A stretch of DNA of 46,458 nucleotides. Origin: Gammaproteobacteria bacterium. GTDB taxonomy: Bacteria; Pseudomonadota; Gammaproteobacteria; SZUA-140. Below, piece by piece: positions 85 through 46,458 of the stretch. The notes beneath the pieces are model-generated. The model ran no database searches and had not been told where the DNA came from. It saw nothing but the letters and a program-made list of their open reading frames with translations. Both the position numbers and the translations under genes were made by a program. Within the stretch, counting starts at the first letter, position 1; every line of letters starts with the position of its first letter. The stretch spans positions 1 to 46,458 of the forward strand of contig QIGV01000072.1 of assembly GCA_003230085.1 (NCBI GenBank). Direction: 5' to 3'.

Positions 85-119
85 TTGACCTTGGTGTACC
101 ACACAGGCTGAGCTACACT
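85..119 (+). promoter_or_regulatory. Putative promoter of pgl-glgX with a degenerate MerR-type dyad
   Basis: TTGACC (85-90) is followed by a dyad of the form CCTtgGTG...CACacAGG, very like the operators at 22.5, 37.0 and 44.9 kb. The nearest -10, TACACT (114-119), lies 23 bp from TTGACC, too long for MerR-type activation. It lies 17 bp from an alternative -35, TTGGTG (91-96), so an ordinary sigma-70 promoter overlapping the dyad is equally possible. It precedes pgl by about 40 bp. Confidence 0.35.
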
Positions 120-3034: not shown

Positions 3035-3688
3035 TTATGTCTTGGGCCCCGGGCGAGCGGGTCTCAGGGGTCTGCCTGCTAGCACCTCGGCTGTTTGTAT
3101 AAACCGATTATCCCCAAGTGGCCTACCGGTGCGTGAATGTTTTCGCAGAGCGTCAAGTCTCTGTTCAGTTTCAGCATCACCCAGGTAACCTTGCCAGTCC
3201 TTTATTCTCCCAAGCAGAGGAGATACACGGACAAAAACATCGTCTCGGCCACGGAGATGTGCACGCGCACTTGACCAAGGCCAGTCCTGAGCATTTTTCA
3301 CCATGCTTGCCCGAACCGGATTTAGTTCGACATAGCGGACCGCAGCAAGTAAATGTTCCTCATCCATTGGGAAGGAATGAAACCGCTCCTGCCAAAGATG
3401 GCCTCGCCAGTCATTCCTTAAATTGATCATTCGTGTATAGCGCCGATGGGCCTCGGCAAGCGATTCACGCAACCCTTCCGCTGCTTGAGGAACGAGTATC
3501 AGATGAACATGATTGGGCATCAGGCAATAAGCCCAGCATTCCGTCCGAGCAGCACTGCAAGCCTTGGCTACAAGACCCAGATAAATCTGGTAGTCATTCC
3601 GGGAAAAAAATATCTTCTGTCGCCGGTTCCCCCGCTGCGTTACATGATGAGGATACCCGGGCAAAACCACCCGTGGAATACGTGGCAT
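3035..3688 (-). CDS. REP-associated tyrosine transposase (Y1_Tnp/IS200-like, RAYT)
   Basis: A 217-aa HUH-superfamily single-strand endonuclease. The metal-binding motif HVH is at residues 60-62 (MPNHVHLI). The catalytic tyrosine is probably Tyr119 in VRYVELNPVRA, the RAYT-type signature. The start MPRIPRVVLPGYPHHV is typical of the family, and a GGAGGAA Shine-Dalgarno sequence lies just upstream. RAYTs are domesticated transposases usually linked to short palindromic intergenic repeats. Here the linked repeats are the flanking 25-bp inverted copies. The frame is intact and has all catalytic residues, so it may be active. Confidence 0.9.
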   Translation of the reverse strand: MPRIPRVVLPGYPHHVTQRGNRRQKIFFSRNDYQIYLGLVAKACSAARTECWAYCLMPNHVHLILVPQAAEGLRESLAEAHRRYTRMINLRNDWRGHLWQERFHSFPMDEEHLLAAVRYVELNPVRASMVKNAQDWPWSSARAHLRGRDDVFVRVSPLLGRIKDWQGYLGDAETEQRLDALRKHSRTGRPLGDNRFIQTAEVLAGRPLRPARPGPKT

Positions 3689-18680: not shown

Positions 18681-19355
18681 TTATCGCTCTTCATCACCGG
18701 GTACTTCTACCGTTAAAAACGCTTTCCATTGATTCAGCGGCGGGAAAAAAGCCGGTGTCTTCCGAACATAATCATTGTATGACTCATCAAACTCCACCTC
18801 GGCACGTCGCTCTTCGAGCCTGGCCAGGCGCACATAAGCATAGAGCAAAATGGGAGCCATCAAAATGGTAAGTAACGTGGGCCATTGCACCAGAAACCCG
18901 ACAATGAAAAAGAAGAGCCCCGTATATTGCGGGTGACGGACGTAAGCGTATATGCCATCGGTGACCAGACCACCACGAGCGGCATGAATCTGCGCCCATC
19001 CCTTTGATAATAGTGTGTAACCCATAATCAGAAATACCAGACTCAACCCCATTACAATAGCCCAAGCCAGAGTTGAGCCACCGAATACCACCACCCACAA
19101 ATGACCAAACTTATGGCTGAAGGGCTGCAATACCGGATAAGCATCGCCTAGCCAACCAGTGAGCAGATAGATAGTCAAAGGAAAACCATACATCTCGGCA
19201 AAGAGGGCCACCAAAAAGGCGGTCACCACCCCCATGCTACGCCACTCGTCACTGCCCCGCGGCTTGAGAAAACCTAGAATAAAAAAGAGGAAAAGACCGA
19301 CATTAAAGGCTGCTACGACCCACAAACCGTAAAAATACCCGGTATTACCATCCAT
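18681..19355 (-). CDS. Isoprenylcysteine carboxyl methyltransferase (ICMT/PEMT)-family membrane protein
   Basis: A 224-aa polytopic membrane protein with about six hydrophobic segments. The C-terminal half carries GIYAYVRHPQYTGLFFF and LEERRAEVEFDESYNDYVRKTP, the S-adenosylmethionine-binding signature of the ICMT/phospholipid methyltransferase superfamily. The substrate in bacteria is unknown. It follows the copper ATPase by 41 bp and is the third gene of the merR-ATPase operon. Its placement suggests a role in envelope adaptation during metal stress, which is inference. Confidence 0.8.
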   Translation of the reverse strand: MDGNTGYFYGLWVVAAFNVGLFLFFILGFLKPRGSDEWRSMGVVTAFLVALFAEMYGFPLTIYLLTGWLGDAYPVLQPFSHKFGHLWVVVFGGSTLAWAIVMGLSLVFLIMGYTLLSKGWAQIHAARGGLVTDGIYAYVRHPQYTGLFFFIVGFLVQWPTLLTILMAPILLYAYVRLARLEERRAEVEFDESYNDYVRKTPAFFPPLNQWKAFLTVEVPGDEER

Positions 19356-19396: not shown

Positions 19397-21940
19397 TCAT
19401 AACTTGAGGCGACGCAGGCGCAAAGCGTTCATGATCACCGAAACCGAGCTGAAACTCATGGCTGCGGCGGCGATAATCGGTGACAGCAGGATGCCGAAAA
19501 ATGGATACAGGATACCCGCCGCCACTGGCACCCCGGCTGTGTTATAGATAAAGGCAAAAAACAGGTTCTGGCGGATATTGCGCATGGTCGCATGGCTCAG
19601 GTGCCTGGCCCGAACGATGCCGCGCAGGTCACCCTTGACCAGCGTCACGCCGGCACTCTCCATGGCCACATCGGTACCGGTACCCATCGCTATTCCGACA
19701 TGAGCCTGGGCCAGGGCGGGAGCATCGTTGATACCGTCACCGGCCATGGCAACAATATGGCCTTCGGCCTGGAGCTGTTTCACGACCTCGGCCTTCTGGT
19801 CCGGCAACACTTCGGCCTGAATCTGATCAATATCGAGCTTGGCAGCCACCGCCTCTGCAGTCGCCCGGCTGTCACCGGTAAGCATGACAACCTTGATACC
19901 GGCGGCATGCAGATCACGAATGGCCTCAGGGGTCGTCTCCTTGACTGGATCGGCTACGCCGATCAGTCCGGCCGCCTTATTGTCTATCGCCAGTAGCATC
20001 ACCGTTTGACCATCGGCACGCAGGGTATCCGCCTGCTGGGGCAGATCTCCGACCTCGATCCCCAGGCTTTCCAGTAACTTGATATTTCCCAGCGCCACCG
20101 GGTGGCCATCCACTGTGCCAGTAACACCCTTGCCGGTCACCGACTGAAAATTCTCAGTCTTGACCAGCGTCAATTCTCTCTCCTCGGCGCCCCGCACGAT
20201 GGCCTCAGCCAAAGGATGTTCACTGGCCCGCTCCAGGCTGGCGGCCAGCCGCAATGCCTCGTGCTCGTGAATGCCATCGGTCGCCACCACAGACACCAGC
20301 TTCGGCTTGCCTTCAGTCAGGGTGCCAGTCTTGTCCACCACCAGGGTGTCCACCTTTCTCAACACTTCCAACGCCTCGGCATTCTTGAATAACACCCCCA
20401 TCATCGCCCCTTTACCGGTGCCGACCATGATGGACATGGGTGTTGCCAGCCCCAATGCACAGGGACAGGCGATGATCAATACCGCTACGGCATTGATCAC
20501 GGCGTAGGCGATAGCAGGCTCCGGCCCCCAGATACCCCAAACAATGAAGGTAATCACTGCGACCGCTACCACGACCGGGACGAAATAGCCCGCCACAAGA
20601 TCCACCAAGCGCTGGATTGGCGCCCTCGAACGCTGCGCATCGGCAACCATCTGCACGATCTGTGACAACAATGTATCAGCGCCAATTTTTTCGGCTTTCA
20701 TCAGCAGACTACCCGTACCGTTGACCGTGGCACCGATCAGACGCTCCCCCGCCATTTTTTCTATTGGCATTGCCTCACCCGTCACCATGGACTCATCCAC
20801 GTTGCTTTCCCCATCGATCACCGTACCGTCCACCGGCACCTTTTCACCGGGACGCACCCGCAGCGTATCGCCAACCTGAACATGTTCCATCGGAATGTCT
20901 TCTTCAGTGCCATCGTCCCGGATGATGCGCGCGGTCTTGGGTGCCAGCCCCAGCAATAGCTTGATGGCCGCATTGGTCTGACTGCGCGCTCGCAGTTCCA
21001 GCACCTGTCCAAGCAATATCAATGCGGTGATCACCGCTGCCGCTTCAAAATAGACCGGTACAACGCCAACATCATTGAACACCTCGGGCGGGAAAACACC
21101 GGGGAAGATTGTAGCAATAATACTATAGGTATAGGCAACCGATACACCGAGCCCAATGAGGGTAAACATATTCAGGTTACGCGTGATAATCGACTGTATG
21201 GCGCGCACATAGAATATCCAGCCTCCCCAGACGATCACCGGGGTTGCGACTATCATCTCAAGCCACTGGCGCAAACCGGGATTGATCAGCTCCGCCATGC
21301 CTTCGGGCCAGAACTCGGCGGCCATGGCGCTGAATAACACCGGGATGGCCAACGCAGCACTGACCCAGAAATGTTTGGTCATATAGTCGAGTTCGCTGGT
21401 GTCCTCCTCTGCCTCTACCGTGACGGCCTCCAGGGCCATGCCACACTTGGGACAACTGCCCGGTTCGTCCTGTACGATTTCCGGGTGCATGGGGCAGGTG
21501 TATTCGGTCTTGCTCGGTGCAGCGGTAACCACCATGGGATCCAGCGCCATGCCGCACTTGGGACAACTGCCCGGTCCTTGTTGCTGGACTTCCGGATGCA
21601 TAGGGCAGGTATACATCGCCGTATCCGATGTCGCCGCCGGCGTGCTTGAAGATGGGTGATCATGTTTACCTTTACCACCACAACAGCTATGCGCCTTTTC
21701 CGTTTGTCCGTGCTTCGATGCCTCGCCAGGATGCTGTTGTTGCTTGCCACCACAGCAGCTATGTTTTTTCTCCGCATGTTCAGGCTTTGATGCCTCGTCA
21801 GGCTGGAGATACTGTGCCGGTGATTCCTTGAATTTTCCCAGACAGCGTGCGCTGCAGAAATAGTAGTGCTCATCTTCATGAACCTGATGAAACTCCGAAT
21901 CGGAAGCCACCTCCATGCCGCATACAGGATCTCGTGCCAT
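19397..21940 (-). CDS. Copper-translocating P1B-type ATPase with YHS and tandem heavy-metal-binding domains
   Basis: 847 aa. N-terminal modules in order: a YHS domain (about residues 4-45, DPVCGMEV and [10 protein letters not shown]), two HSCCGGK repeats in His/Lys-rich linker (about 60-90), and two heavy-metal-binding domains (YTCPMHPE...[10 protein letters not shown], about 109-170). A classical GMxCxxC HMA domain is absent. The membrane and catalytic core has CPC (about 490), DKTGTLT with the phosphorylated Asp (about 534), GDGINDAP (about 733), and in the last helices YN and MSFSSV, which are Cu(I)-ATPase signatures. It should export Cu(I), possibly Ag(I), from the cytosol. It is the second gene of an operon after merR. 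Confidence 0.93.
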
Positions 21941-22006
21941 TATTCTTTTCCTTTTATTCAGAATATAAGATTTATTTCATAAATTTCAGACAAAATCTGT
22001 CAAAAT

Positions 22007-22423
22007 CTACAGTGGTTCTATCACCGTCTCAATCAGATGACAGATCTCATCACCGTCTGGTTCTCCGTCCGGCATGGCTTTCCATTTTTCCAATGCCTCC
22101 TCCATACGGTGTTGCAGAGCATTCAGTTCAGCCAACCTGATACGGTTATCATCGATACGCTGGCAAATAATATCACGGACAGCGGGACAGGGTGATTGCC
22201 CCTGGCTTTCGTGCCTGAAAATTTCCTGGATATCGTTCAGGGAGAAACCCAGTCCCTTCGCCTGGCGGATAAATTTCACCTTTTTGATATCACTACCATT
22301 GAACAACTTGTAGTCGTTGTGAGGGTCCCGCCTTGGGTTTAGCAACCCGATCCTTACATAGTGACGTATGGCATCGGATGTCACCTGGGCTGATTTGGAT
22401 AATTCGCTGACTGTCATCATCAT
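22007..22423 (-). CDS. MerR-family metal-responsive regulator (ZntR/CadR-like)
   Basis: A 138-aa activator with a MerR winged helix (TVSELSKSAQVTSDAIRHYVRIGLL, residues 4-28), a second DNA-binding segment (NDYKLFNGSDIKKVKFI), and a dimerisation helix (about 79-115). Cys79 (SPCPAVRDI) and Cys128 (EICHLIETV) align with ZntR Cys79 and Cys124. The intervening ZntR-type CCGxxH loop is replaced by an acidic MPDGEPDGDE. Cys87 is an additional Cys. The ORF track starts at a GTG at 22429. The ATGs at 22423, 22420 and 22417 sit better behind AGGTG. The copper ATPase follows after 66 bp. The promoter upstream (22476-22507) has the 20-bp spacer expected of its own target. Confidence 0.9.
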   Translation of the reverse strand: MMMTVSELSKSAQVTSDAIRHYVRIGLLNPRRDPHNDYKLFNGSDIKKVKFIRQAKGLGFSLNDIQEIFRHESQGQSPCPAVRDIICQRIDDNRIRLAELNALQHRMEEALEKWKAMPDGEPDGDEICHLIETVIEPL

Positions 22424-22475
22424 AATCACCTATGAAATAGTGTATTACGTTTCTTCTTCCTGAGCATTCTACCGC

Positions 22476-22511: not shown

Positions 22512-23249
22512 TTAATCACAATTCAATTTAAATACCATCACCCGGTAGAAACCGTCAAATATTTGATGGTTCTCAGTCAATTCAACGCGCTTCCCGAGAG
22601 CCAGCGCCTCGGCCTGCAACATGGCCACGATATCTTCACGCCAGAACTCCTGCAGGAAGGGCTCATAGCGGGTCAATAACTTGCGGACCGGCCAGCAGCG
22701 ATACAGCCAATGTGTACTCGGCTCCATGCCGTATTCTGTCACTACCAGGCTTCCTCCCGGTTGCAACACCCGAATAGTTTCACTCAAAACATGCCGCCGG
22801 GCTTCGGTCGGCATTTCGTGCATGAGAAAAAAGATCAGCACAGTGGCAAAACCATTATCCCTAAGCCCAAGATATTCGGCGTTCATGCGCATGGGCAACA
22901 AACCATATCGTTTCGCAGCAAGTTTTGACCGACTGGCCTTTAGCTGAGCAGAAGACACGTCAAGAAGAAAGAGCGGTTCATCTCCCAAATGATGCACCAG
23001 ACTCGGTGTCAGCTTGCCATACACACAGGTTAGCTGCAAAAAACGCCCGGCAGGACGTTCCACCAGACAGGACATGGTCTTTTTCAATAGGCGGTTATAC
23101 TGCCCGAACAAAATAATATTGATGATTGGCTGATGATCAAAAAACCAGATCGCGGGTCGCCACAAATATGCCCACCAATAATGGCGCGCCAGATAAACCG
23201 GTGTGCCATCCAGAAAATAGCGCCAAAAAGATAGACCAAATTTCAGCAA
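22512..23249 (-). CDS. rquA: RquA-like methyltransferase-fold protein (rhodoquinone biosynthesis)
   Basis: The 245-aa protein matches the pattern of RquA, which converts ubiquinone to rhodoquinone with S-adenosylmethionine as amino donor. Diagnostic segments are PVYLARHYWWAYLWRP (18-32), FFDHQPIINIILFGQYNRL (36-54) and LQLTCVYGKLTP (71-82), which stands in place of the usual DxGxGxG loop, then LLDVSSAQL and LIFFLMHEMPTEARR. Rhodoquinone lets a bacterium run fumarate reduction in low oxygen. The only in-frame start seen is TTG at 23249, without a clear Shine-Dalgarno sequence, so the exact start is uncertain. It is divergent from the cytochrome c gene. A generic quinone methyltransferase is the alternative. 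Confidence 0.7.
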   Translation of the reverse strand: MLKFGLSFWRYFLDGTPVYLARHYWWAYLWRPAIWFFDHQPIINIILFGQYNRLLKKTMSCLVERPAGRFLQLTCVYGKLTPSLVHHLGDEPLFLLDVSSAQLKASRSKLAAKRYGLLPMRMNAEYLGLRDNGFATVLIFFLMHEMPTEARRHVLSETIRVLQPGGSLVVTEYGMEPSTHWLYRCWPVRKLLTRYEPFLQEFWREDIVAMLQAEALALGKRVELTENHQIFDGFYRVMVFKLNCD

Positions 23250-23783: not shown

Positions 23784-24974
23784 ATGAAAATGAGATATCG
23801 TTATTTTAAAATCGCAGGCACAATTGGGCATTCCAGATTAATCTGGCTAATATCAGCCACCCTCATCGTCAATTTTTTTCTCATCAGCACTGCAAATGCG
23901 ATCCCTGCCTTTGCCCGAAAATATCAGGCTGAATGCAGTACCTGCCACAATAACTGGCCTGCACTGAATGCCACTGGCCGCAAGTTCAAGGAACAGGGCT
24001 ACCGCATGTCTCGCGCAGAGGAACAGGGCTTTCTGAACTGGGACAAAACCCTGCCCGTTACCGCCATGATCAAGGCCCGACCCTATGAAAAAGAAGATAA
24101 CGGCGACAAAAAAATACGTGCGCTGCACGAGGTAGAAATCATGATAGGGGGCGTGATGGCCAAGGATATTTCCGGCTTTTTCGAACTCGAGGCAGAGGAT
24201 GACAATGATTTTAATGTTGAGGTGGGATCAGCCTCAATTGCCTATCACCCTATGGATGCGCTCAATGTCCAGTTTTCATGGGGAGCGATCACCTGGAACG
24301 ATCCCTATGACGTCTATTCCAATGCCCGCAAGTTAACCCGTAACCGTGCCTCAGTTATCAATGAACGCTTTGGTGGCGCAGATAATAATGGGCGCGTGCG
24401 TGATTCACGGCAAAACGTCACCCTCTATGGTCGACCAAAGGAAATGATCTACTATAGCATTGGTATCAGCGGTCTTGCAGATGACTCAAACGGTGAGGAC
24501 AGCGACGTTATCAACGGCCGCCTGGCCTGGGATATCAAACAGAATATCATGGTAGGGCTCACCGCCATGAGCGGCTCTTGTGAGAACACCGCAAGCAATT
24601 GTGCCGTTAAACGAGATTTTACCCGGGTCGGAATCGATGCACAGGCAGACTTCGACAATATTCGCGTGATGGGCGCCTTACTGAGCGCCAAAGATGACAA
24701 TGCCGCGGGTACGAACGAGGATGAAAATTTAGCGCTATACGTCGAAGCCAGCTATGCCTTCAAGAAGGACGGTCGCACGACCTTTGTCCCTCTACTGCGT
24801 TTAGACAGCTATGAGAGAAATGACGGCAAGGATGATTTCACTGAACTCACTGCCCAGGTCAGCTATTACTTAACACAAAACGCGCGTGGCTTCATTGAGT
24901 TCTGGAATCAGGACGCACCGGGCTCAGGTAATAATAACAATATGCTGACTTTGCAGGGTGAGGTCACATTTTAG
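23784..24974 (+). CDS. Cyc2-like outer-membrane cytochrome-porin fusion
   Basis: 396 aa. A long signal peptide ends at about STANA (39). The mature N-terminus, AIPAFARKYQAECSTCHNNW, carries one haem site (CSTCH, 51-55) followed by PALNATGRKFKEQGY. The pattern CxxCH...PxLNxxGRxFKxxGY is the hallmark of Cyc2-type fused cytochrome-porins, which move electrons across the outer membrane. The remaining 320 residues alternate in beta-barrel style and end in GEVTF, with the terminal Phe typical of BAM substrates. Cyc2 is known for Fe(II) oxidation, but related fusions occur elsewhere and the electron source cannot be told from sequence. GGGGA lies 8 nt before the ATG. Confidence 0.75.
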   Translation: MKMRYRYFKIAGTIGHSRLIWLISATLIVNFFLISTANAIPAFARKYQAECSTCHNNWPALNATGRKFKEQGYRMSRAEEQGFLNWDKTLPVTAMIKARPYEKEDNGDKKIRALHEVEIMIGGVMAKDISGFFELEAEDDNDFNVEVGSASIAYHPMDALNVQFSWGAITWNDPYDVYSNARKLTRNRASVINERFGGADNNGRVRDSRQNVTLYGRPKEMIYYSIGISGLADDSNGEDSDVINGRLAWDIKQNIMVGLTAMSGSCENTASNCAVKRDFTRVGIDAQADFDNIRVMGALLSAKDDNAAGTNEDENLALYVEASYAFKKDGRTTFVPLLRLDSYERNDGKDDFTELTAQVSYYLTQNARGFIEFWNQDAPGSGNNNNMLTLQGEVTF

Positions 24975-35286: not shown

Positions 35287-35925
35287 ATGTCAGAGTTCTT
35301 ACAATCCCTCATGACAGTGGCAAACAACTACGAGCCATTACTCGTAGAGTATGGCCTGATAATTATTCTCACTGCCATCGCGATAGAGGGTTTCGGAATA
35401 CCTGCACCAGGTCAAAGCCTGCTTATCGCGGGTGCACTACTAAGCACACGCGGTGAATTCGATATCCGCCTGTTACTTATATCGGCCTCGCTTGCCACGA
35501 TAGCCGGAAGTACGCTGGGCTATATTATTGGCAGAATCGGCGGCAGAAAACTGCTGCTTCGTCTACCACTACGTCCCTCCAGACTTGAACGTATGGAGGC
35601 ATTCTGTCAACGCTATGGCACACTACTCGTCATCCTCTCGCGCTTCATCGACGGCCCCCGGCAACTCACTGGTATTTTCGTCGGCAGCCTGAAAATGCCG
35701 GCCATAGTGTTCCTCCTGGCAACCAGTGCAGGTGCAGTGTTATGGGTTGGTTTTTGGGGGATCAGCAGCTACTACCTTGGCCAGCATATACATGCCATTG
35801 CACAGGTTTTCGAATCTATTGCGCCTTACACCTGGATTACTACAGGGATTTTAATCCTCGCAATATGCATATATCTGTTCCGAAGACACCATCACCGTAA
35901 TAAGTCAACGCCAGGGGAACACTAG
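35287..35925 (+). CDS. DedA-family membrane protein
   Basis: A 212-aa member of the DedA/VTT superfamily, which includes flippases for undecaprenyl phosphate and phosphatidylethanolamine. Family motifs are EGFGIPAPGQSLLIAG (about residues 37-52), LGYIIGRIGG, and SRFIDGPRQLTGIFVG (about 118-133). In many DedA proteins the first motif ends PGE rather than PGQ. It overlaps the DUF4396 gene by 4 bp, tail to tail. Confidence 0.87.
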   Translation: MSEFLQSLMTVANNYEPLLVEYGLIIILTAIAIEGFGIPAPGQSLLIAGALLSTRGEFDIRLLLISASLATIAGSTLGYIIGRIGGRKLLLRLPLRPSRLERMEAFCQRYGTLLVILSRFIDGPRQLTGIFVGSLKMPAIVFLLATSAGAVLWVGFWGISSYYLGQHIHAIAQVFESIAPYTWITTGILILAICIYLFRRHHHRNKSTPGEH

Positions 35926-36740
35926 CCAAAAAATTCCCCGGATAGCCAAAGTCCTCCTGCCAAAAAACCAAATGTAATTATAATTACGACTATGACAGTG
36001 CCCGACCCTGGTCGTTCACCACCGCCATGATCGTCGTGACCACCTTCGCCCTGGTCAACAGGGCTGCCATGTTCAGCGCCATGTTCCAGCTCTGGGCGGA
36101 CAGTCAACATACCGTGTTTCATGTTGTTGACGACCAACCACCAATTGATTGGGTAGGCTAGTGCGAACCCTACCACCAACGCCATCGACATGGTAAACCA
36201 GAAGGCGAGTTGAAAGGGGTCACCGGCGCCCTCAATCCGATGCATCAGGAATTTCATGGTCGGGATCATACCGGTCATCAACAGGTTCATCGACACCAAC
36301 TCGGGGATGAACGTTTCCTTTAGCGACCGTGTGTACGAACCGCCAACCATATCACGCATAGCGAAGGCCTGGAAATAGGCCCATCCAAAACCAAATCCAA
36401 GTGTGTACTCAAGCGCGAAATCACCCCATGCCGAGAGGCCCAGGTAGGCGCCGATTGCAGCGCCAGTAATGATACCGATACCGTCTCCGGCAGCACAATG
36501 CATGGTTGAACCAAGTACCTGGCGCCACGTTGCAGAAACATACTGCTCATGGGTGCCTTTCAGCGGTTCGCGGCAGCCAAGCACATAGAAGAATGCGCCA
36601 AGCGGACCGGTAAAAACAACCAGGATAACGAACGCCCACTTGAGTACCGTCGACTCAGGCGTCTTTGGTATATCAATGACGACAAAAGCCACCGACAGGC
36701 CGGTCAAAACAAACCAGGCGATCATAATACCTTCAATCAT
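35922..36740 (-). CDS. DUF4396 membrane protein with a His/Asp-rich loop
   Basis: 272 aa with about six hydrophobic segments. The middle, FALEYTLGFGFGWAYFQAFAM and LVSMNLLMTGMIPTMKFLM, is typical of DUF4396, a family of unknown function. Near the C-terminus, before the last helix, is a loop EHGAEHGSPVDQGEGGHDDHGGGERPG with five His and several acidic residues, a plausible metal-binding site. AAGGA lies 9 nt before the ATG. A MerR-type promoter (37029-37060) and a 280-nt leader lie upstream. Metal handling is inferred from the loop and the promoter. Confidence 0.75.
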   Translation of the reverse strand: MIEGIMIAWFVLTGLSVAFVVIDIPKTPESTVLKWAFVILVVFTGPLGAFFYVLGCREPLKGTHEQYVSATWRQVLGSTMHCAAGDGIGIITGAAIGAYLGLSAWGDFALEYTLGFGFGWAYFQAFAMRDMVGGSYTRSLKETFIPELVSMNLLMTGMIPTMKFLMHRIEGAGDPFQLAFWFTMSMALVVGFALAYPINWWLVVNNMKHGMLTVRPELEHGAEHGSPVDQGEGGHDDHGGGERPGSGTVIVVIIITFGFLAGGLWLSGEFFG

Positions 36741-36825
36741 AATATCTATCCTTGCACAATGCTTTTATTGATTATGAGTTTTTCTTCTTTTTTCGACCAG
36801 GGCCTGCGCTCGCCGACATACATTT

Positions 36826-36894
36826 TCAACAATGACGACCCAGCTTCATTGATATCGGAGCAATCCCTCGTTCTGAGAGCAGCTGCATTGACAT
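36826..36894 (-). CDS. Possible 22-aa leader peptide
   Basis: MSMQLLSERGIAPISMKLGRHC is preceded by GAGGAGG six bases before its ATG, a stronger ribosome-binding site than that of most genes here. It lies 85 bp before DUF4396. The peptide is not recognised. It ends in Arg-His-Cys. It may be a leader ORF or coincidence. Confidence 0.4.
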   Translation of the reverse strand: MSMQLLSERGIAPISMKLGRHC

Positions 36895-36925
36895 GGTGTG
36901 CCTCCTCAAAATAATACACTTCTCA

Positions 36926-36969: not shown

Positions 36970-37028
36970 ACCATTTTTTCCGCAGTGGTATCGGCATGTG
37001 AAACTGCAATGGTGTTAAGCTTGAGCAC

Positions 37029-37060
37029 AATGTAAAACCTGTGTGCAGCTTACGGGTCAA
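37029..37060 (-). promoter_or_regulatory. MerR-type promoter/operator upstream of DUF4396 (P3)
   Basis: Minus-strand TTGACC (37055-37060), a 20-bp spacer and TACATT (37029-37034). The right half of the spacer, ACACAGGTTT, nearly matches the alpha-glucan phosphorylase promoter (ACAAAGGTTT), and a 21-bp dyad ACC...GGT spans it. The left half-site differs more than in the other two. Confidence 0.6.
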
Positions 37061-37247: not shown

Positions 37248-38456
37248 ATGAATAAAATCGACACCGACAGTAAGTACAGAACCCTGACCCCGAGCCAGAT
37301 TCTCTCCTGGGTGGAGGATGAGACACAGGTTATGCGGTTGCGTACCGATCTTGACGTCATCCCCGGGGGATACATGGCGGCAGCGATCCCGGTACTGGTC
37401 GACTGGCCTGCCAGCAAACCGCACGGTGATCAGGCGTTTATCGTTCTGCGGCACGTCAACTATGGCGGTAACCCGTTTGAGAAATCCACCATACTGCACA
37501 GTGTGCGGGTCCCGCTTGATGGGCTGGCGAGTGTTGAGCTCACGCTGGTACCCTTTGGCGAGGGCGGGCGGCTAGGGCCCTTGCAACATGTGCAGTTGCG
37601 TTTCATTTTTGAATCGGGCAAGGAGCCTGAGCTGCTTAACCTTGCTGGTGCAGAAACCGGTGCAGACCCGCGAATTCCCGACCTTGTGTTTAGCTGGGTA
37701 TCCTGGCGACGCCCGGATGTCAGCTGGAACTTACGCAAAGGCATGGATGACGAATCACAGATTTACTGGCTGAGTCTACGTGCCTTCGCCGGCTCACAGA
37801 AATTTCTGGAGGATGTGCTGGAAGGACGCGACTGGTATTGTTATCCCTTGCGCTTACCGGGCGGGAAAGAAGGCTTGGCTGAACTGTTCATGTCGACGGT
37901 AACACTGGGAGATGGTGTTGCACGCGATACACTGGCGCGCATGCTTGCGGGTGGAGAGGAAGCTTGGTTGAAGCATGCGCCTCCCGATAATAACGCAGAG
38001 CAGGATATTCGCAGCCAGTGGAACGAACTTCTCGTACACATCAAGAAATCAGATCCACAGGCATTGGCAGAGGTGCTTCTTCCCCCGGAGCAGGACACCT
38101 ACCACCCACTGGTACGTTCCTGCGCTACTCTGGCGCGCCATACTGTGTTACTGACAGTAAAGCGGTTGATTGCCAACGGACAGGGAGAAGGTGTGGTACT
38201 GGATAAACTGCCCGAACCGTTTCTCGGTACCACAGAAGTCTGGATGAAGGAATTCGCCCATGCCGGCCTGAGAGGGCTGTTTCTGTGTGCACCAATCGCC
38301 ATACGTTACGTGATGAGGCACCACGAGACAGTACCTAAAGACATCCCTGCTGAGCTCGATGCTGCCGGTCTCATTCAGCGGCACAACGGCAAGCGTTGCC
38401 GGATTCATTACAGTCATAAGGGTACAACGCCCTATGGCCCTGCATTTTTTGTCTAG
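37248..38456 (+). CDS. Unrecognised 402-aa protein
   Basis: Not recognised. It is a soluble protein with no signal peptide or membrane helix. The N-terminal half looks beta-rich (VIPGGYMAAAIPVLVDW, STILHSVRVPLDGLASVELTLVPF) and the C-terminal half helical and charged. HVNYGGNPFEKS and WVSWRRPDVSW stand out as possible conserved motifs. GGGAG lies upstream, but it also serves a six-residue ORF (ATG 37234, MRFIHE) that overlaps the start. The alpha/beta hydrolase gene follows after 15 bp, so the two form a pair. The 187 bp before it also contain the P3 -35 region on the other strand. Confidence 0.7.
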   Translation: MNKIDTDSKYRTLTPSQILSWVEDETQVMRLRTDLDVIPGGYMAAAIPVLVDWPASKPHGDQAFIVLRHVNYGGNPFEKSTILHSVRVPLDGLASVELTLVPFGEGGRLGPLQHVQLRFIFESGKEPELLNLAGAETGADPRIPDLVFSWVSWRRPDVSWNLRKGMDDESQIYWLSLRAFAGSQKFLEDVLEGRDWYCYPLRLPGGKEGLAELFMSTVTLGDGVARDTLARMLAGGEEAWLKHAPPDNNAEQDIRSQWNELLVHIKKSDPQALAEVLLPPEQDTYHPLVRSCATLARHTVLLTVKRLIANGQGEGVVLDKLPEPFLGTTEVWMKEFAHAGLRGLFLCAPIAIRYVMRHHETVPKDIPAELDAAGLIQRHNGKRCRIHYSHKGTTPYGPAFFV

Positions 38457-39259: not shown

Positions 39260-39964
39260 TCAGCGATCACGACCCTCCAATTTACGCCAGGTAAAATGTT
39301 CGTACACACCCGACCAGTACATACCGAAGCCGATAGCAAACAACAGCTCCTCAATGGGCATATAACCAATATTTATCCCGGATAACACTCCCAGATTCCA
39401 AACCCGATCAATATAACCCGGGGCACTCCATTCCAGACCTGCTAAAAAGATGGCGTAATAGATCAAAAACAGCAAACCTCCAATCCAGGTTTTTGATTTC
39501 AGATCCGGCCGACAGAGAACAGTTGCCAAAGCACCGGCAAACATGGCAAGAATTGAAGGGTAAATCGGGTTCCAGGGGAATAAATAGAGCGCAATAAAAA
39601 CAAAAAATGGCGTGGCCAGTGCTTTGTAATGATGCCGGTGCAAAGAGTGATGGCGTTCACAAGCGCCCACAGCCTGAGGAATTTTTTGGGTTAGAAGGTT
39701 ATAAAATACGGAGCCAATACCACCAATACCAAAACAGAAAATCAGGCTTTCGATATCAAATCCTGTATTTTCTGCCAGATCAAACAGGCTGGGTGGCATC
39801 CAGTATTCCGGTACAAACAGCGGTTCGCTCAGGCCGAATGGCATCGTAAACAGGCTCGCCCATAGCATAGCCCGGCGCTGCGCGGGAAACACCATATAGA
39901 CAAGCGCCCAAGGTATCAGAAATGCGCTCGACCAGAGCAACCAGACGTATTGATCAGGATTCAT
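39260..39964 (-). CDS. Lycopene-cyclase-domain (CrtY-c/d-like) membrane protein
   Basis: About 234 aa with six to seven membrane helices. CFGIGGIGSVFYN and YMPIEELLFAIGFGMYW resemble the repeated motifs of heterodimeric/fused carotenoid beta-cyclases (P-x-E-E-x-x-F). No other carotenoid gene is present, so the name reflects fold, not proven activity. The ORF track starts at a GTG (39997) overlapping the phospholipase gene; ATG 39964 is preferred because it follows that gene's stop by 13 bp. It is the last gene of the glgP operon. Confidence 0.6.
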   Translation of the reverse strand: MNPDQYVWLLWSSAFLIPWALVYMVFPAQRRAMLWASLFTMPFGLSEPLFVPEYWMPPSLFDLAENTGFDIESLIFCFGIGGIGSVFYNLLTQKIPQAVGACERHHSLHRHHYKALATPFFVFIALYLFPWNPIYPSILAMFAGALATVLCRPDLKSKTWIGGLLFLIYYAIFLAGLEWSAPGYIDRVWNLGVLSGINIGYMPIEELLFAIGFGMYWSGVYEHFTWRKLEGRDR

Positions 39965-39977
39965 TGCAGACAGCGCC

Positions 39978-41105
39978 TTATAACCATCGCCTGACACTCC
40001 ATCCCAAAAGCTCTGCTAATCGCGGTATCCAGCGGCGATTCCGCCAACGTGTGGCACACACCGCTGAAGCTTCTGCCACGTCAAGCTCAAATTGTGCTTG
40101 TAAACGACTGCAGAGGTCAGGGTCTCGACTGACCAGGTTCAATTCATAGTTTTGAAACAGACTGCGATAATCAAGGTTGGCAGTACCCAATGTCGCCCAG
40201 TTTCCATCCACGATGGCGACCTTGGCATGCAACATTCTGGGCAGGTACTCATAGATCCTGACACCCGCATCTAACAGATGTGCATATACGGCATTGGCTG
40301 CCCAGCCCGCCAGGCGTACATCACTGGTACGCGGCACTAATAATCGAACATCAACACCCCGTTTTACCGCCGCAAGCAATGCTTTCTGCGTACGATGATC
40401 GGGCACAAAATAAGGCGTCGTCAGACAGACCTGTTTTTTGGCGCTGCTTAATAAGTCTTTATATAAACAGGCCAGTCGCCGCCGACAAGAGCGGGTCTGA
40501 TTGGGTACCAGCACACTGCTTTTCCGGCCATCGTTATAGGGCAACCAGCGTCGATCACCGCGCCAGAATGCGTCAAACAACTCGGCAGCCTGGCGGGCCA
40601 GAAGCCCTTGAAAAGAAGCGTGAGTATCACGCCAACGTTCAGCGCCAAAATAGCGCCGTGAACTTTGCCGATGTATATTAAAGCCACCCAGAAAGGCCTG
40701 ATGACCATCTACCACCAGTAGTTTACGATGATCACGGCGGTTGTAGCGCAACGGTTCACGCCAGTGCCAGGGATGAAAGTGACGTACCTGCACCCCCGAT
40801 TGACCTAGCTCAGGTCCCAATGAGCGGTAAAACTGAAACAACGATCCTAGCGCATCTACCAACAGACGCACCTCTACTCCAGCCCTTGCCCGCTCCGATA
40901 AAGCACGGGCAAAACGACGGCCCACCTCATCATCGGCGAAAATGTAAGTCTCCATCCACACCTGCTCTTGCGCACCTTCGATAGCTGCGAGCATCGCCTC
41001 AAACAAATGGTCACCTTCCGTATACAGCTGAATGGTGGCGCCAATAGTGCCTGGCTCCGGCAGTGGGTTGCATGAACAAGGATCATCCACCATGCTATTT
41101 CGCAT
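39978..41105 (-). CDS. Phospholipase D-type cardiolipin synthase
   Basis: 375 aa with two HKD catalytic motifs: HRKLLVVDG (about residue 125) and HAKVAIVDG (about 291), each followed by the conserved GGFN and GTANLDYRS segments. No N-terminal membrane helices are visible, unlike ClsA, so it is closest to the ClsB-type soluble or peripheral enzymes. It would condense phosphatidylglycerol into cardiolipin. It starts 11 bp after the AlbA_2 gene. Confidence 0.88.
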   Translation of the reverse strand: MRNSMVDDPCSCNPLPEPGTIGATIQLYTEGDHLFEAMLAAIEGAQEQVWMETYIFADDEVGRRFARALSERARAGVEVRLLVDALGSLFQFYRSLGPELGQSGVQVRHFHPWHWREPLRYNRRDHRKLLVVDGHQAFLGGFNIHRQSSRRYFGAERWRDTHASFQGLLARQAAELFDAFWRGDRRWLPYNDGRKSSVLVPNQTRSCRRRLACLYKDLLSSAKKQVCLTTPYFVPDHRTQKALLAAVKRGVDVRLLVPRTSDVRLAGWAANAVYAHLLDAGVRIYEYLPRMLHAKVAIVDGNWATLGTANLDYRSLFQNYELNLVSRDPDLCSRLQAQFELDVAEASAVCATRWRNRRWIPRLAELLGWSVRRWL

Positions 41106-41116
41106 TCAATCCCTGA

Positions 41117-41908
41117 TCAGCGCCGCGACACATGCGCCAGTGCTTCTCGAACATCGAGTTCCCGAGTCCCGTTACCAGTACGTAAGAAATAGCGAGGGAC
41201 CTTACCATCGACACAATATACGGGCTCTGGTGAATGCTCCACAACGATACGGCAAACATCTTTTTCATCTATTCCATAAAACATGCAATGCACAAGTGCA
41301 CAAAGATCCCCTCCCAGACGTGTTTTTACGATGTCTGTGATACACCGCTCAAACCCATCCCGGCCTTTATGTTTAAGCGTCTGGTAATCGTTTGCTAATC
41401 CGACGATGTCTCCATCGTCATTGACACCCACCAGCAGGCTTCCGCCCTTATGGTTCATAAATCCCGCGATCGTTTTTGCAATCACACTCTCGAGCGCGCG
41501 ATTAGGCTTGTCCTGCTGGTGGTCCCACCGCACCGAGGACTTAAATTCAAGGTGCTCGCTTTCGCCACTTTTGATCAAAAACGGCAGGTCCACGGCCAGT
41601 TCTTTTTCAAGAGACCGAACGGTTCGATGCTGCCTGATAATGGCAAGATGATACAAGCCAAACCAGGAACCAATGCCACCACCAATAAGGCCGAAAATTA
41701 TGCTCATGGGGATCATCTCAATTGAAAAAGAGGTTTCCAGTCGAAATAGCAAAAACTCCCACAGACTTCCTACACCTGTCGTCATCGTATCCTTAAATTC
41801 AAACCAGTAGACAGCTTTGGTCAGGGGGTGCAAGACAATGATCCCTATCACTGCGCCAAGCAGAAAATGACGCGTCAATGACCACATGTCAGAAGATGTT
41901 ACTTTCAT
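41117..41908 (-). CDS. Membrane-anchored AlbA_2 (schlafen-type) protein
   Basis: 263 aa. Two N-terminal helices (about residues 14-30 and 62-84) are followed by a basic linker and an AlbA_2 domain (about 112-245) with EHLEFKSSVRW, KTIAGFMNHKGGSLLVGVNDDGDIVGL and YFLRTGNGTREL. AlbA_2 domains occur in putative DNA- or RNA-binding regulators, and membrane anchoring is less usual. Two Cys residues lie in LCALVHCMFYG. It is 29 bp downstream of the CxxCH membrane gene and co-transcribed with it. Confidence 0.82.
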   Translation of the reverse strand: MKVTSSDMWSLTRHFLLGAVIGIIVLHPLTKAVYWFEFKDTMTTGVGSLWEFLLFRLETSFSIEMIPMSIIFGLIGGGIGSWFGLYHLAIIRQHRTVRSLEKELAVDLPFLIKSGESEHLEFKSSVRWDHQQDKPNRALESVIAKTIAGFMNHKGGSLLVGVNDDGDIVGLANDYQTLKHKGRDGFERCITDIVKTRLGGDLCALVHCMFYGIDEKDVCRIVVEHSPEPVYCVDGKVPRYFLRTGNGTRELDVREALAHVSRR

Positions 41909-41937
41909 GGCCTGCTACAATAATCTGGCATTGATGT

Positions 41938-42666
41938 CTAGCATGTTTTGTGGGGCGAACGCCTGAACCACATCTGATACAGGGAACTGAATATCTGTAT
42001 CGCTAAACATAAACCCAGCACCCCGCCAGCAATAACTACGGTATAAGCGTAAACAGGATCCCACTTGGTGAGAAACCAGGCCAGGATATCCACGAACATG
42101 GCAACAAAGGGTAATACAATCAGGGTAGACTTCAGCCCACTGTGCATCTCGACACGCCGGAACACCATACCCACGCCGAACAGAATAAGACCAATACCAA
42201 ACAAGTGTATGTGTGATACTTTCATCAGACTATGAATCGACATGCCGGTATCAATGCCGGTTACCTCCTGGATACCCTCATAGGTGGACAAATTCGGAAT
42301 ATCCAACCCGGACTCGGGACTATGACAATCCAGACAGCGCTCGGCCAGTATCGGTCTAACAACCGATTTATATCCGCTTTCGGGTGCTCCGGATTGAATC
42401 CAGGCAACAATTTTTCCACGCGCCTTGATCTGGATATATCCCGACATCGGACCTCGCATTGCCGCCTCCAGGCGACTACCACTACGGTTACCATAATAAT
42501 CTTCTGCAATATCCTCTACCGAAAGACCAGGCTTGCCATCGACATTTTCAAAACTTGTATAGAGAAAAGCCAGCGCCATCAAATACCCCAGCCCCATCAG
42601 TAAAACAAATGAGGTATAGAGCAATCGTTCACTGAATTCACATTCACAAATAGGTCGTAATTTCAT
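41938..42666 (-). CDS. Membrane protein with a haem-type CxxCH motif
   Basis: 242 aa. One N-terminal helix (about residues 15-37) leads to a periplasmic-type loop with CLDCH (111-115, in RPILAERCLDCHSPESG). Three to four helices follow (about 150-168, 179-198, 207-228), the first containing SHIHLFGIGL. The loop could bind one c-type haem and the membrane His residues a further haem or metal. The family is not named here. It follows the YHS gene by 14 bp in the glgP operon. A role in redox or metal sensing is possible but not shown. Confidence 0.75.
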   Translation of the reverse strand: MKLRPICECEFSERLLYTSFVLLMGLGYLMALAFLYTSFENVDGKPGLSVEDIAEDYYGNRSGSRLEAAMRGPMSGYIQIKARGKIVAWIQSGAPESGYKSVVRPILAERCLDCHSPESGLDIPNLSTYEGIQEVTGIDTGMSIHSLMKVSHIHLFGIGLILFGVGMVFRRVEMHSGLKSTLIVLPFVAMFVDILAWFLTKWDPVYAYTVVIAGGVLGLCLAIQIFSSLYQMWFRRSPHKTC

Positions 42667-42680
42667 TTTCTAATTCCAGT

Positions 42681-43169
42681 TTAATGATGGTGGGAAGAGG
42701 TGACTTCCAGACTTTCGATCTGTAGTTCCTCGCTTTCTTGTAAAAAAGCGCGACGCAAGCGCTCTGACCAGCCTCCTCCCAGTTGAATGCCAATCTCAAC
42801 CAGCTTTTCCTCAAGCTGCTTCAATGTCACCTGCAGCAAGTCATAGGTGATCTCTATGGTGTCTTGCGATACCTTGAGATCCTTGATACCCATCATCGCC
42901 TGCAGTGCCTCACTGACCTGCGTGGTATCCTCCGACGACAAAGGCTGGGACAGGCGAATGCGGCGCCGCTTGACCACTTCCCGACCCTCCTGCTTGGGCG
43001 CCTTGTGCCCGGGTGTACCGATATATAAATGGGGATTGGTCAAAAAACGTGCCTTGCACTGCTTTGAACAGAATGCGAAAGACATCTGTAAATATTCAAT
43101 CGCATTGTCCTGCGAGTCCACCATCATCCCACATACCAAATCCTTGACCCGATCATCATCTTGGCTCAT
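42681..43169 (-). CDS. YHS-domain metal-binding protein
   Basis: 162 aa. The N-terminal YHS domain (about residues 8-48) has DLVCGMMV and FCSKQCKARFLTNPHLYIG, matching the YHS module at the start of the copper ATPase in this window ([18 protein letters not shown]). The C-terminal half (about 75-140) resembles the ferredoxin-like HMA fold but lacks GMxCxxC (MMGIKDLKVSQDTIEITYD). The last residues are SSHHH. It is a likely cytosolic metal carrier or sensor. It starts 13 bp after the phosphorylase gene. Confidence 0.82.
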   Translation of the reverse strand: MSQDDDRVKDLVCGMMVDSQDNAIEYLQMSFAFCSKQCKARFLTNPHLYIGTPGHKAPKQEGREVVKRRRIRLSQPLSSEDTTQVSEALQAMMGIKDLKVSQDTIEITYDLLQVTLKQLEEKLVEIGIQLGGGWSERLRRAFLQESEELQIESLEVTSSHHH

Positions 43170-43182
43170 ACCTCACCTCCTT

Positions 43183-44877
43183 CTAGTGTATATACGCCTC
43201 GGTCACATAACGCCGCATCATGCGGTGGGTATTGAAAAATGAAGCATTCTTGCAGATAGCACCTTTCATGACCTTGACCCATTTGTCCTGGTGATTGTGA
43301 TACAGGGGCAAAACAACATGTTCCAGTTTATGGTACAGAGATTGTTCATCCGCACCATTATCGGATTCTGCACTGTCACCGATTGACCAGCCGGTCACCC
43401 CTTCAATGCAGCCCTCGATCCACCAGCCATCCAGAATACTCAGGTTGGGAACACCATTGAATGCCGCCTTCATGCCGCTGGTCCCGGAGGCTTCCATTGG
43501 ACGTAGTGGCGTATTCAGCCACACATCTACACCCGCCACCATTAAACGGGCAATCTCCATATTGTAACCCGGCAGAAAGGTCATATTGACGATGCCGTCA
43601 AGTTCATGAATGTGGCGATGGAGCATCTCTATAAGCTGCTTACCGCCCTCGTCATGGGGGTGCGCTTTACCTGCCAATACAATTTGAAAAGGGTATTTTT
43701 GCGCAATCCTCTTCAAACGTTCCAGGTCGGAAAAAAGTAAATCGGGGCGTTTGTAAGCCGTCATGCGGCGCGCGAAACCAAAGGTGGGAAGATTACTATC
43801 AAACGTCGCCCCGGTCAGCGTCTTGATTTTATCTATCAGCGAAGCTTTCGCAAGCTGGTGTGCGTTTAGGACTTCCTCATCTGAAATACAACATTCGGCG
43901 CGCACCAACAGCTCCGGTTCATGACACCAACCACTCAGGTGGTGATCAAAGAGTTTAGCAAAACCCGGATGGGTCCAGGTATAGGGATGCACCCCGTTGG
44001 TGACTGCATTCACCCGGTAACCGGGAAACATCTTGCGGGAGATTTCGGCATGGCGCTTGGCCACGCCGTTGACGTATTCACTCAGATTAAGTGCCAGGCG
44101 CGTCATATTGAGCTCGTCCTCCCCGGCAAGCTGTTTCAAAGTAGGCAGATCGATAAAATCACCCAGAACACTTTTCACCAGATCATAGGAAAACCGGTCA
44201 TGCCCGGCTTCCACCGGCGTATGTGTCGTGAAACAGCACAGCTCCCGCACCAGCGGAATATCATAGGATGGCTCACCGGGGCGCCTGTCCTCGGGGTGAT
44301 AGGCAAAGCGTTTCAATAATTCCAGGCCCAGCAAGGCAGAATGACCTTCATTCATATGGTGCTGGCGGACTTCAAAACCCAGTGCCTGTAGCAAACGCAT
44401 GCCGCCAATGCCTAAAATAATTTCCTGTTTGAAACGATAGCTTTTATCTCCCCCATACAGTGTATGAGTAATCTTCCGGTCTTCACTACTGTTCTCGTCC
44501 AGGTCCGTATCGAGTAACAGAACAGGTTGCCTGCCCCCCATATGGCCTTCAAGGATATAGAGCCAGGCACTCACCCAGACGGGGCGTCCTTCAATCGTGA
44601 CTGAAACCTTGGCGCCCAGTGGAGTTGCATGATCCGCCGGATCCCAAAACGCGGGCTGCTCGGTCTGACGCCCCTGTTCATCAAGCGCCTGACGAAAGTA
44701 CCCTGCCCTGCTGACCAGACTGACCGCCACCATCGGCAGATTCAGATCGGTAGCTGAACGCATGGTATCGCCGGCCAGCACCCCCAGACCGCCACTATAG
44801 GTGGGAATATCATTGCGTAGTGCAATCTCCATCGAAAAATAGGCGATCCGCGGTTCGTGGATAAATTCATTCAACAT
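43183..44877 (-). CDS. glgP: Alpha-glucan (glycogen) phosphorylase
   Basis: 564 aa, the short GT35 form (alpha-glucan family phosphorylase) with no N-terminal DUF3417 domain. [28 protein letters not shown] is the N-terminal substrate and phosphate region. [19 protein letters not shown] (about residue 466) holds the Lys that binds pyridoxal phosphate. It releases glucose 1-phosphate from glycogen. The ORF track starts at a TTG (44883), but ATG 44877 is preferred because AAAGGA lies 7 nt upstream. It is first in a six-gene operon behind a MerR-type promoter, and downstream of phosphoketolase. Confidence 0.93.
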
Positions 44878-44946: not shown

Positions 44947-46458
44947 TCAGTGGCTCCATTTCCAGTTGCGAATCTCGGGCATATCTTCCCCGTAAGTGGT
45001 GATATAGGTTTTATGCTCAATGAGTTTATCGCGCATTTGCTGCTTCAGATAGGCGGCCGATGGACCCAGCTTTGCGACACGGTCAATCACATCCTGCACC
45101 AGGTGATAGCGATCCAGATCATTCCTGACCACCATATCAAATGGTGTGGTAGTGGTGCCCTCCTCCTTGAAACCCCGCACATGCAGATGATGATGACACA
45201 GGCGTCGGTAAGTCAGGCGATGGATCAACCAGGGGTAACCATGATAGGCAAAGATCACAGGAACATTAGAGGGAAACAGATCATTAAAATCAGCATCTGG
45301 CAAACCATGGGGATGTTCACTGGACGGCTGCAATGTCATCAAGTCCACGACATTAATAACCCGCACCTTTAAATCCGGTAGATGGTGGCGCAGTATATCC
45401 ACTGCGGCCAACATTTCGATGGTGGGCACATCCCCTGCCGCTGCCATCACAACATCCGGGATGCCGTCCTGATCATTACCCGCCCACTCCCAGATGCCGA
45501 TCCCGGCGATGCAGTGCCTGACGGCCTCATCCATATCCAGCCACTGAAGTTGGGGCTGCTTACCGGCCACAATAACATTCACAAAATTTCGGCTGCGTAA
45601 GCACTTATCCGTGACAGCCAACAACGTGTTGGCATCCGGTGGCAGATAGACCCGAATGATATCCGCTTTTTTATTGACCACATGATCGATAAAGCCGGGG
45701 TCCTGGTGAGAAAACCCGTTATGGTCCTGGCGCCAGACGTGAGAGGTCAGCAGATAGTTAAGTGATGCAATGGGCTGTCGCCAGGGAATTTCAGTGCTGG
45801 TCACCTTGAGCCATTTGGCATGCTGGTTAAACATGGAATCAATGATATGAATAAAGGCCTCATAGCAGGAAAACAGGCCATGCCGTCCGGTGAGCAAATA
45901 ACCTTCCAGCCATCCCTGACAGGTATGTTCACTAAGAATCTCCATCACCCGACCGTCAGTGGCCAGATGATCATCCTCGGGCAGTGTCTCAGCCTGCCAG
46001 GCCCGGCCGGTCACCTCAAACAAGGCACCGAGACGGTTGGAGGCCGTTTCGTCGGGGCCAAAAATACGGAAATTACGACTTTCCTGATTGAGCTGCATCA
46101 CATCCCGTAACAACTGCCCCATGGCTCGCGTCGCCTCACCCAGGCACTGACCGGGATGATCTACCGCCAGCGCATATGCCCTGAAGTCCGGCATCCTGAG
46201 ATCCTTCAACAGCTTGCCGCCATTGGTGTGCGGATTGGCGCCCATCCGCAGCGCTCCCTGTGGCGCCAGCGCTGCCAGTTCCGGGATCAGAGCCCCACGT
46301 TCATCGAAAAGTAATTCAGGCTGGTATGACTTCAACCATTGCTCAAGCAGTTTGAGGTGTTCGGGTTTGCTAGCAAGTTCTCCAAAAGGCACCTGATGGG
46401 AACGCCAGTAGTCTTCGGTTTTTTGGCCATCCACTTCCCTGGGACCGGTCCAGCCCTT
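44947..46458 (-). CDS. xfp: Phosphoketolase (partial, C-terminal part)
   Basis: Splits xylulose 5-phosphate and/or fructose 6-phosphate with phosphate to acetyl phosphate and a shorter sugar phosphate, using thiamine diphosphate. About 503 of the usual 790-800 residues are inside. The frame runs off the right edge, where KGWTGPREV is the conserved mid-protein motif, so the 46434 start of the ORF track is an internal [22 protein letters not shown] and [15 protein letters not shown] are diagnostic. It precedes glgP on the same strand with no terminator between. Phosphorylase and phosphoketolase together would turn glycogen into acetyl phosphate. Confidence 0.95.

Follow-up and report, generated by a model that had tools for sequence, protein, structure and literature searches.

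A Candidate MerR-Regulated glgP Operon with Carbon and Membrane-Lipid Genes in a Proposed Mosaic Copper Island of a Gammaproteobacterium

The glgP Operon

The window analyzed here is the whole 46,458-nt contig QIGV01000072.1 from the 2.9 Mb assembly (81% complete) of a gammaproteobacterium, and our subject is a run of six co-directional open reading frames (ORFs) on its minus strand (39260-44877), which we consider together with a MerR-type regulator and a copper ATPase encoded elsewhere in the same window. A sequence-only reading had described this run as six closely spaced genes of particular families, and all six ORFs and their families were confirmed: an alpha-glucan phosphorylase (glgP), a YHS-domain protein, a membrane protein with a CxxCH motif, a membrane-anchored SLFN_AlbA_2 protein, a cardiolipin synthase-like protein (Cls) and an integral membrane protein with a lycopene cyclase domain (cyc). 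The intergenic gaps are 11-29 bp (13, 14, 29, 11, and 13 bp from glgP to cyc, the last becoming -20 bp if cyc starts at its alternative GTG), and we predict that glgP-yhs-cxxch-albA2-cls-cyc forms one transcription unit. The earlier description left out two features of the window, the MerR/CopA partner ~22 kb away and the phosphoketolase gene xfp (44947-46458), which lies directly upstream on the same strand, 69 bp from the glgP ATG. The contig end cuts xfp so that its 3′ part is present, and its N-terminus had no match elsewhere in the host assembly.

The product of glgP (43183-44877, ATG start) passes the TIGR02094 model with 546.4 bits (cut-off 191.7) and scores ~320 bits against a solved alpha-glucan family phosphorylase (9l6i). 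The YHS-domain protein (42681-43169, PF04945) has conserved cysteines C13, C34, and C38, and its C-terminal part consists of an HMA/CopZ-like region, with weak CsoZ/CopZ matches at 70-127, and a His tail. The third gene (41938-42666) encodes a protein with ~4 transmembrane (TM) segments and one CxxCH motif (CLDCH, residues 111-115) that is invariant; it matched no Pfam or NCBIfam family, its AlphaFold2 model was too poor for use (predicted local distance difference test score, pLDDT, 58.6), and the “haem” label it had been given is a putative one drawn from the CxxCH motif. The SLFN_AlbA_2 protein (41117-41908, PF04326) has an N-terminal membrane anchor of ~2 TM segments followed by the AlbA_2 domain. 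Cls (39978-41105, PLDc_2) is a PLD family protein of the ClsB type in which both HxK(x4)D motifs are intact and conserved (H126xK128..D133 and H293xK295..D300), with scores under the NCBIfam equivalog cut-offs both for ClsB (217.6 bits, cut-off 281) and for general cardiolipin synthase (245.7 bits, cut-off 290). The last gene, cyc, extends from 39260 to its likely ATG start at 39964, or to 39997 with the GTG, and its product matches PF18916 with 55.7 bits.

A MerR-Type Operator at Three Places in the Window

The single MerR-type promoter that had been proposed ahead of the operon was located between xfp and glgP (44937-44905, minus strand), where TTGACC and TAGACT, 20 bp apart, span the dyad ACCTGGGTGTTACACAAAGGT with the half-sites ACCTGGGTG..CACAAAGGT. 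Two further copies, also on the minus strand, are found at 22507-22475, before the genes merR-copA-ICMT, and at 37028-37060, 320 bp upstream of a gene for a DUF4396 membrane protein (35922-36740), which is thereby a putative member of the same regulon. The spacer is 20 bp at all three, and MerR-type metal regulons are known by a palindrome within a promoter spacer of 19-20 bp (PMC1526738). Searched against the 2.9 Mb assembly, a pattern that merges the three sites has exact matches at three places, each of them in the window; when up to three mismatches were allowed no further place was found in the assembly, and a reversed control pattern gave 0. As the merged pattern was built from the window sites themselves, a weight matrix was trained separately on 13 sites, all taken from other genomes, and with this held-out matrix the three operators ranked first to third in the window (30.7 bits for the DUF4396 copy, 23.4 for the glgP copy, and 23.0 for the merR copy), the next place scoring 15.9. 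Elsewhere, the operator precedes merR in loci L002, L088, L089, L090, L093, L095, L103, L135, L140, and L144, and in other genomes it also precedes genes for cyclopropane synthase (CFA), an FAD-oxidoreductase, YHS and HD-domain proteins, ICMT and CopA.

A canonical CueR operator (ACCTTCC-N7-GGAAGGT) was ruled out, there being none with fewer than three mismatches in the window and two matches at chance level. Control by FNR/ANR was likewise rejected, for the lack of an FNR-like site at the glgP promoter, and oxygen, which had been suggested as a signal, gained no support; across the window weak TTGAT-N4-ATCAA matches are commoner than in shuffles (44 vs. 27). A scan for sigma-70 promoters returned four sites, below the chance expectation, with spacers of 16-18 bp that make it blind to MerR promoters.

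The place scoring 15.9 bits (85-118, plus strand), fourth best in the window, is a weak operator-like site followed by genes resembling those for 6-phosphogluconolactonase and for a glycogen-debranching enzyme (glgX). We rejected it as a fourth operator for its wrong spacer, the -10 spacing being unfit.

The MerR-CopA Partner

The regulator gene, merR (22007-22429), lies ~22 kb from the glgP operon and encodes a protein with a conserved SPCP cysteine and a C-terminal CHLI motif. It is followed on the minus strand by copA (19397-21940), for a CopA-type Cu+ P1B-1 ATPase that has YHS and CPMHPE repeats in its N-terminal part (TIGR01511, 596.8 bits, cut-off 397), and by a gene for an ICMT/PEMT-like membrane methyltransferase (18681-19355). 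A regulator gene and an efflux gene thus stand together (19397-22429) behind their own operator, from which autoregulation of merR is predicted. Since the glgP operator also precedes merR-copA, the signal points to a metal, which the earlier reading had missed, and MerR is the probable activator of the glgP operon. Directly upstream of the merR operator, on the same strand, is a gene for an RquA-like (rhodoquinone-type) class I S-adenosylmethionine enzyme (22512-23249), a recurrent member of such islands. The window protein scores 159.1 bits against NF038261, below the cut-off of 175, and 13 of its 13 relatives in islands give a match to the RquA model; the island may therefore alter quinones.

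Recurrence in Other Genomes

We fetched 80 genome loci of the cyclase and extended them with regions from whole genomes. The expectation of a conserved gene order was borne out in part: the fixed six-gene order had no second occurrence among the fetched loci, while pairs do recur: two other clusters have AlbA_2-CLS, one has CLS-cyclase and one YHS-CxxCH(-CLS), and GlgP-cyclase and XFP-YHS adjacencies are also seen elsewhere. At most four of the six partners of cyc (glgP, yhs, cxxch, albA2, cls, and xfp) lie within 10 kb of it in any other non-redundant cluster. The suggestion of a stress module joining storage carbon and phosphoketolase to membrane lipids fared better, as in other genomes each of the six families turns up again, in shuffled order, close to the cyclase or copper ATPase gene. 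Within 10 kb of cyc in 85 other non-redundant clusters, CopA or MerR was present in 56 and any metal-core gene in 67, with YHS in 28, CLS in 9, CxxCH in 9, AlbA_2 in 8, XFP in 7, and GlgP in 5. A Cu+-type P-ATPase (~45% identity or more) lay no more than 15 kb from cyc in 17 of 22 genomes vs. 0.48 expected (P ~1e-24), and a phosphoketolase in 5 of 17 vs. 0.27 expected (P 5e-6); for these statistics the number of ATPase and XFP copies in each genome was read by hand.

Two loci illustrate the shuffling. On one strand, L089 carries merR-x-copA-ICMT-x-glgP-YHS-DUF5676-CFA-copA-xfp-yhs-FAD-cyc-ack, and in a genome of the same family as the host (G002, locus L150) glgP, ICMT, CxxCH, copA, YHS, and CLS genes share one strand with cyc convergent. 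Further recurrent members of these islands are genes for ICMT-like, RquA-like, patatin, cyclopropane-synthase, acetate kinase, and YHS proteins, together with an FAD-oxidoreductase whose closest family is that of geranylgeranyl reductase, below its cut-off; RND/TolC, YHS, and DUF2933 genes are among the neighbors. The cyclase gene itself is an accessory one, carried by 2 of 20 genomes from the order and 29 of 369 from the class, and its plasmid copies adjoin copper and arsenic genes.

A recurrent island member, present in 13 of the 85 clusters, is an ABC transporter ATPase that carries a YHS domain at its C-terminus (L026:11807-12718). On the Croceicoccus marinus plasmid pCME4A9II (L136) the cyclase gene is broken into two annotated ORFs; it adjoins DUF2933-ICMT and, unusually, genes for enolase, phosphoenolpyruvate synthase, and type II glyceraldehyde-3-phosphate dehydrogenase (GAPDH), another link between cyc and central carbon metabolism.

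The Cyclase-Domain Protein

Over 41 diverse members of the cyclase family, residues E58, D81, E83, H120, H123, R163, E216, E217, and H234 are invariant. The two-half architecture of PF18916 is present with acidic residues conserved in both halves. No NCBIfam model matched the protein; its structural model reached a pLDDT of 80.8, and a fold search with it against the PDB gave nothing below E 0.001, nor was a sequence relative found there. A carotenoid role was rejected for 22 of 23 genomes, as the phytoene desaturase CrtI is missing from these, the host among them, and above cut-off in one. Matches to SQS_PSY (squalene/phytoene synthase) were mostly adjacent pairs, a pattern that we take to be that of the hopanoid genes HpnC/HpnD. 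Because its acidic and His residues are invariant, the cyclase-domain protein is probably an enzyme acting on another, non-carotenoid prenyl substrate. As a long shot, it could be a metal-induced prenyl-lipid cyclase that cyclizes a polyprenyl tail (of a quinone or similar molecule) and, with the geranylgeranyl-reductase-like and RquA-like enzymes, yields a metal-resistant membrane quinone or lipid.

A Proposed Metal-Switched Arm of a Copper Island

Our best explanation, to which we give a probability of roughly 60%, is that a mosaic copper island stands under its dedicated MerR and that the glgP operon, with xfp just upstream, is its arm for envelope repair and phosphoketolase bypass, switched on by metal. 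Excess metal, most likely Cu(I) or Ag(I), would be bound at the Cys/His site of MerR, which would then twist the 20-bp-spacer promoters of merR-copA-ICMT, the DUF4396 gene and the glgP operon and so switch them on. CopA would export the metal and the YHS protein would bind it or hand it over, while Cls, the cyclase-domain protein and ICMT would rebuild membrane phospholipids and prenyl lipids, joined elsewhere by patatin, cyclopropane synthase, and the geranylgeranyl-reductase-like and RquA-like enzymes. GlgP and phosphoketolase (with acetate kinase in relatives) would convert stored glucan to acetyl-phosphate and ATP, by-passing a copper-sensitive GAPDH. A YHS domain has been described as a probable copper sensor (PMC4626032), and the idea of a carbon by-pass comes from the inhibition of the GAPDH of Staphylococcus aureus by copper (PMC6350627), as glucan phosphorolysis followed by phosphoketolase would yield acetyl-phosphate without that enzyme.

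The closest known system is the merR-copA-cupredoxin-DUF2933-ICMT cluster in genomic islands of Alteromonas macleodii and others (PMC8478169), and the best reading of the window system is as an enlarged version of these islands that keeps the merR, copA, and ICMT genes of their core. Shared features are a merR directly before the copper ATPase, an ICMT-like gene, a wide spread on islands and plasmids and, in many relatives of the window cluster, DUF2933; what differs is the second operon, in which carbon and lipid genes (GlgP, CLS, and cyclase) stand under a common operator. The text of PMC8478169 uses neither the word lycopene nor phosphoketolase, cardiolipin, or YHS, and among the papers searched we found none linking a lycopene-cyclase domain or a phosphoketolase to a MerR-copA island. 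As in the CueR/HmrR, ZntR, and MerR regulons (PMC1526738), a palindrome sits in a 19-20 bp spacer and a regulator is paired with an efflux ATPase. Unlike those regulons, the one proposed here has a regulator that keeps SPCP and the C-terminal CHLI, and includes carbon and lipid genes; its dyad (ACCTGTG..CACAGGT) also differs from that of the CueR type (ACCTTCC..GGAAGGT). The cyclase resembles membrane-integral lycopene cyclases of the CrtYcd type in its PF18916 match, a conserved acidic PxEE-type motif and several TM helices, and departs from them in the missing CrtI, the missing NCBIfam match and its metal-gene neighbors. Similarly, xfp upstream of glgP, and ack beside xfp in relatives, recall the phosphoketolase-acetate kinase pathway, here placed in a MerR/CopA island and not in a sugar regulon.

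Several points weigh against this explanation. The gene order as a whole was seen in the window alone, and only a minority of clusters have XFP or GlgP near cyc. With the assembly 81% complete, more copies of the operator may be missing. The inducer could also be a divalent metal, because MerR keeps the cysteine at the position usual for MerR/CadR and there is no CueR-type operator in the window. In its fuller form this last point becomes an alternative that we consider unlikely, namely that MerR senses a divalent or mercury-like soft metal (Zn, Cd, Pb, or Hg) in place of Cu(I) and that the island confers general heavy-metal resistance. MerR does align best with mercury and cadmium regulators, and its ZntR and MerR NCBIfam scores exceed that for CueR (63.6 bits, cut-off 147.4), all being below cut-off; however, the ATPase is of the copper type, the cadmium model passing with a lower score than TIGR01511, and the RND/TolC, YHS, and DUF2933 neighbors are known from copper loci (PMC8478169).

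We think it quite improbable that the metal pump is incidental and that the unit serves low-oxygen or energy stress, with fermentation of glucan to acetyl-phosphate and adaptation of quinones and membrane under hypoxia. The promoter is of the MerR type and common to merR-copA, no FNR-like site accompanies it, and CopA or MerR accompanies cyc in most clusters, although the RquA-like gene and its family, the adjacency of phosphoketolase and acetate kinase in five clusters, and nearby cytochrome c genes would all fit such a role. Least probable is a passive hot spot at which unrelated accessory genes gather beside mobile copper resistance genes, as the shuffled order, accessory status and plasmid copies might suggest, given that the operator stands before several island units, including lipid genes, in different genomes, that genes overlap or nearly touch within operons, and that the cyclase, at 59-88% identity across several phyla, has dozens of positions that do not vary, which argues for selection. 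The cyclase tree likewise spans several phyla and is unable to prove individual transfers.

If correct, our explanation would widen MerR/CopA islands beyond plain metal export, adding the rebuilding of membranes and a new routing of carbon to their regulon. It would give a context to the widespread orphan “lycopene cyclase domain” proteins, whose annotation as carotenoid genes is probably mistaken. From the operator, the regulon can be predicted in further genomes, and what the YHS, AlbA_2, CxxCH, and cyclase proteins do becomes testable under a defined inducer.

Other Features of the Window

A possible 57-aa leader ORF (36746-36919, minus strand) lies downstream of the third operator, ahead of the DUF4396 gene. 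Divergent from the DUF4396 gene is a 402-aa ORF (37248-38456) without a Pfam or NCBIfam match and without a relative in the fetched loci; it is followed by an alpha/beta hydrolase gene that is convergent with the glgP operon. On the contig that carries the island, an ORF (3035-3688, minus strand) resembles, judged by its sequence, a REP-associated tyrosine transposase. Near merR-copA and beside an MMPL transporter gene, a further gene (23784-24974) encodes a porin-like protein with an N-terminal CSTCH motif.

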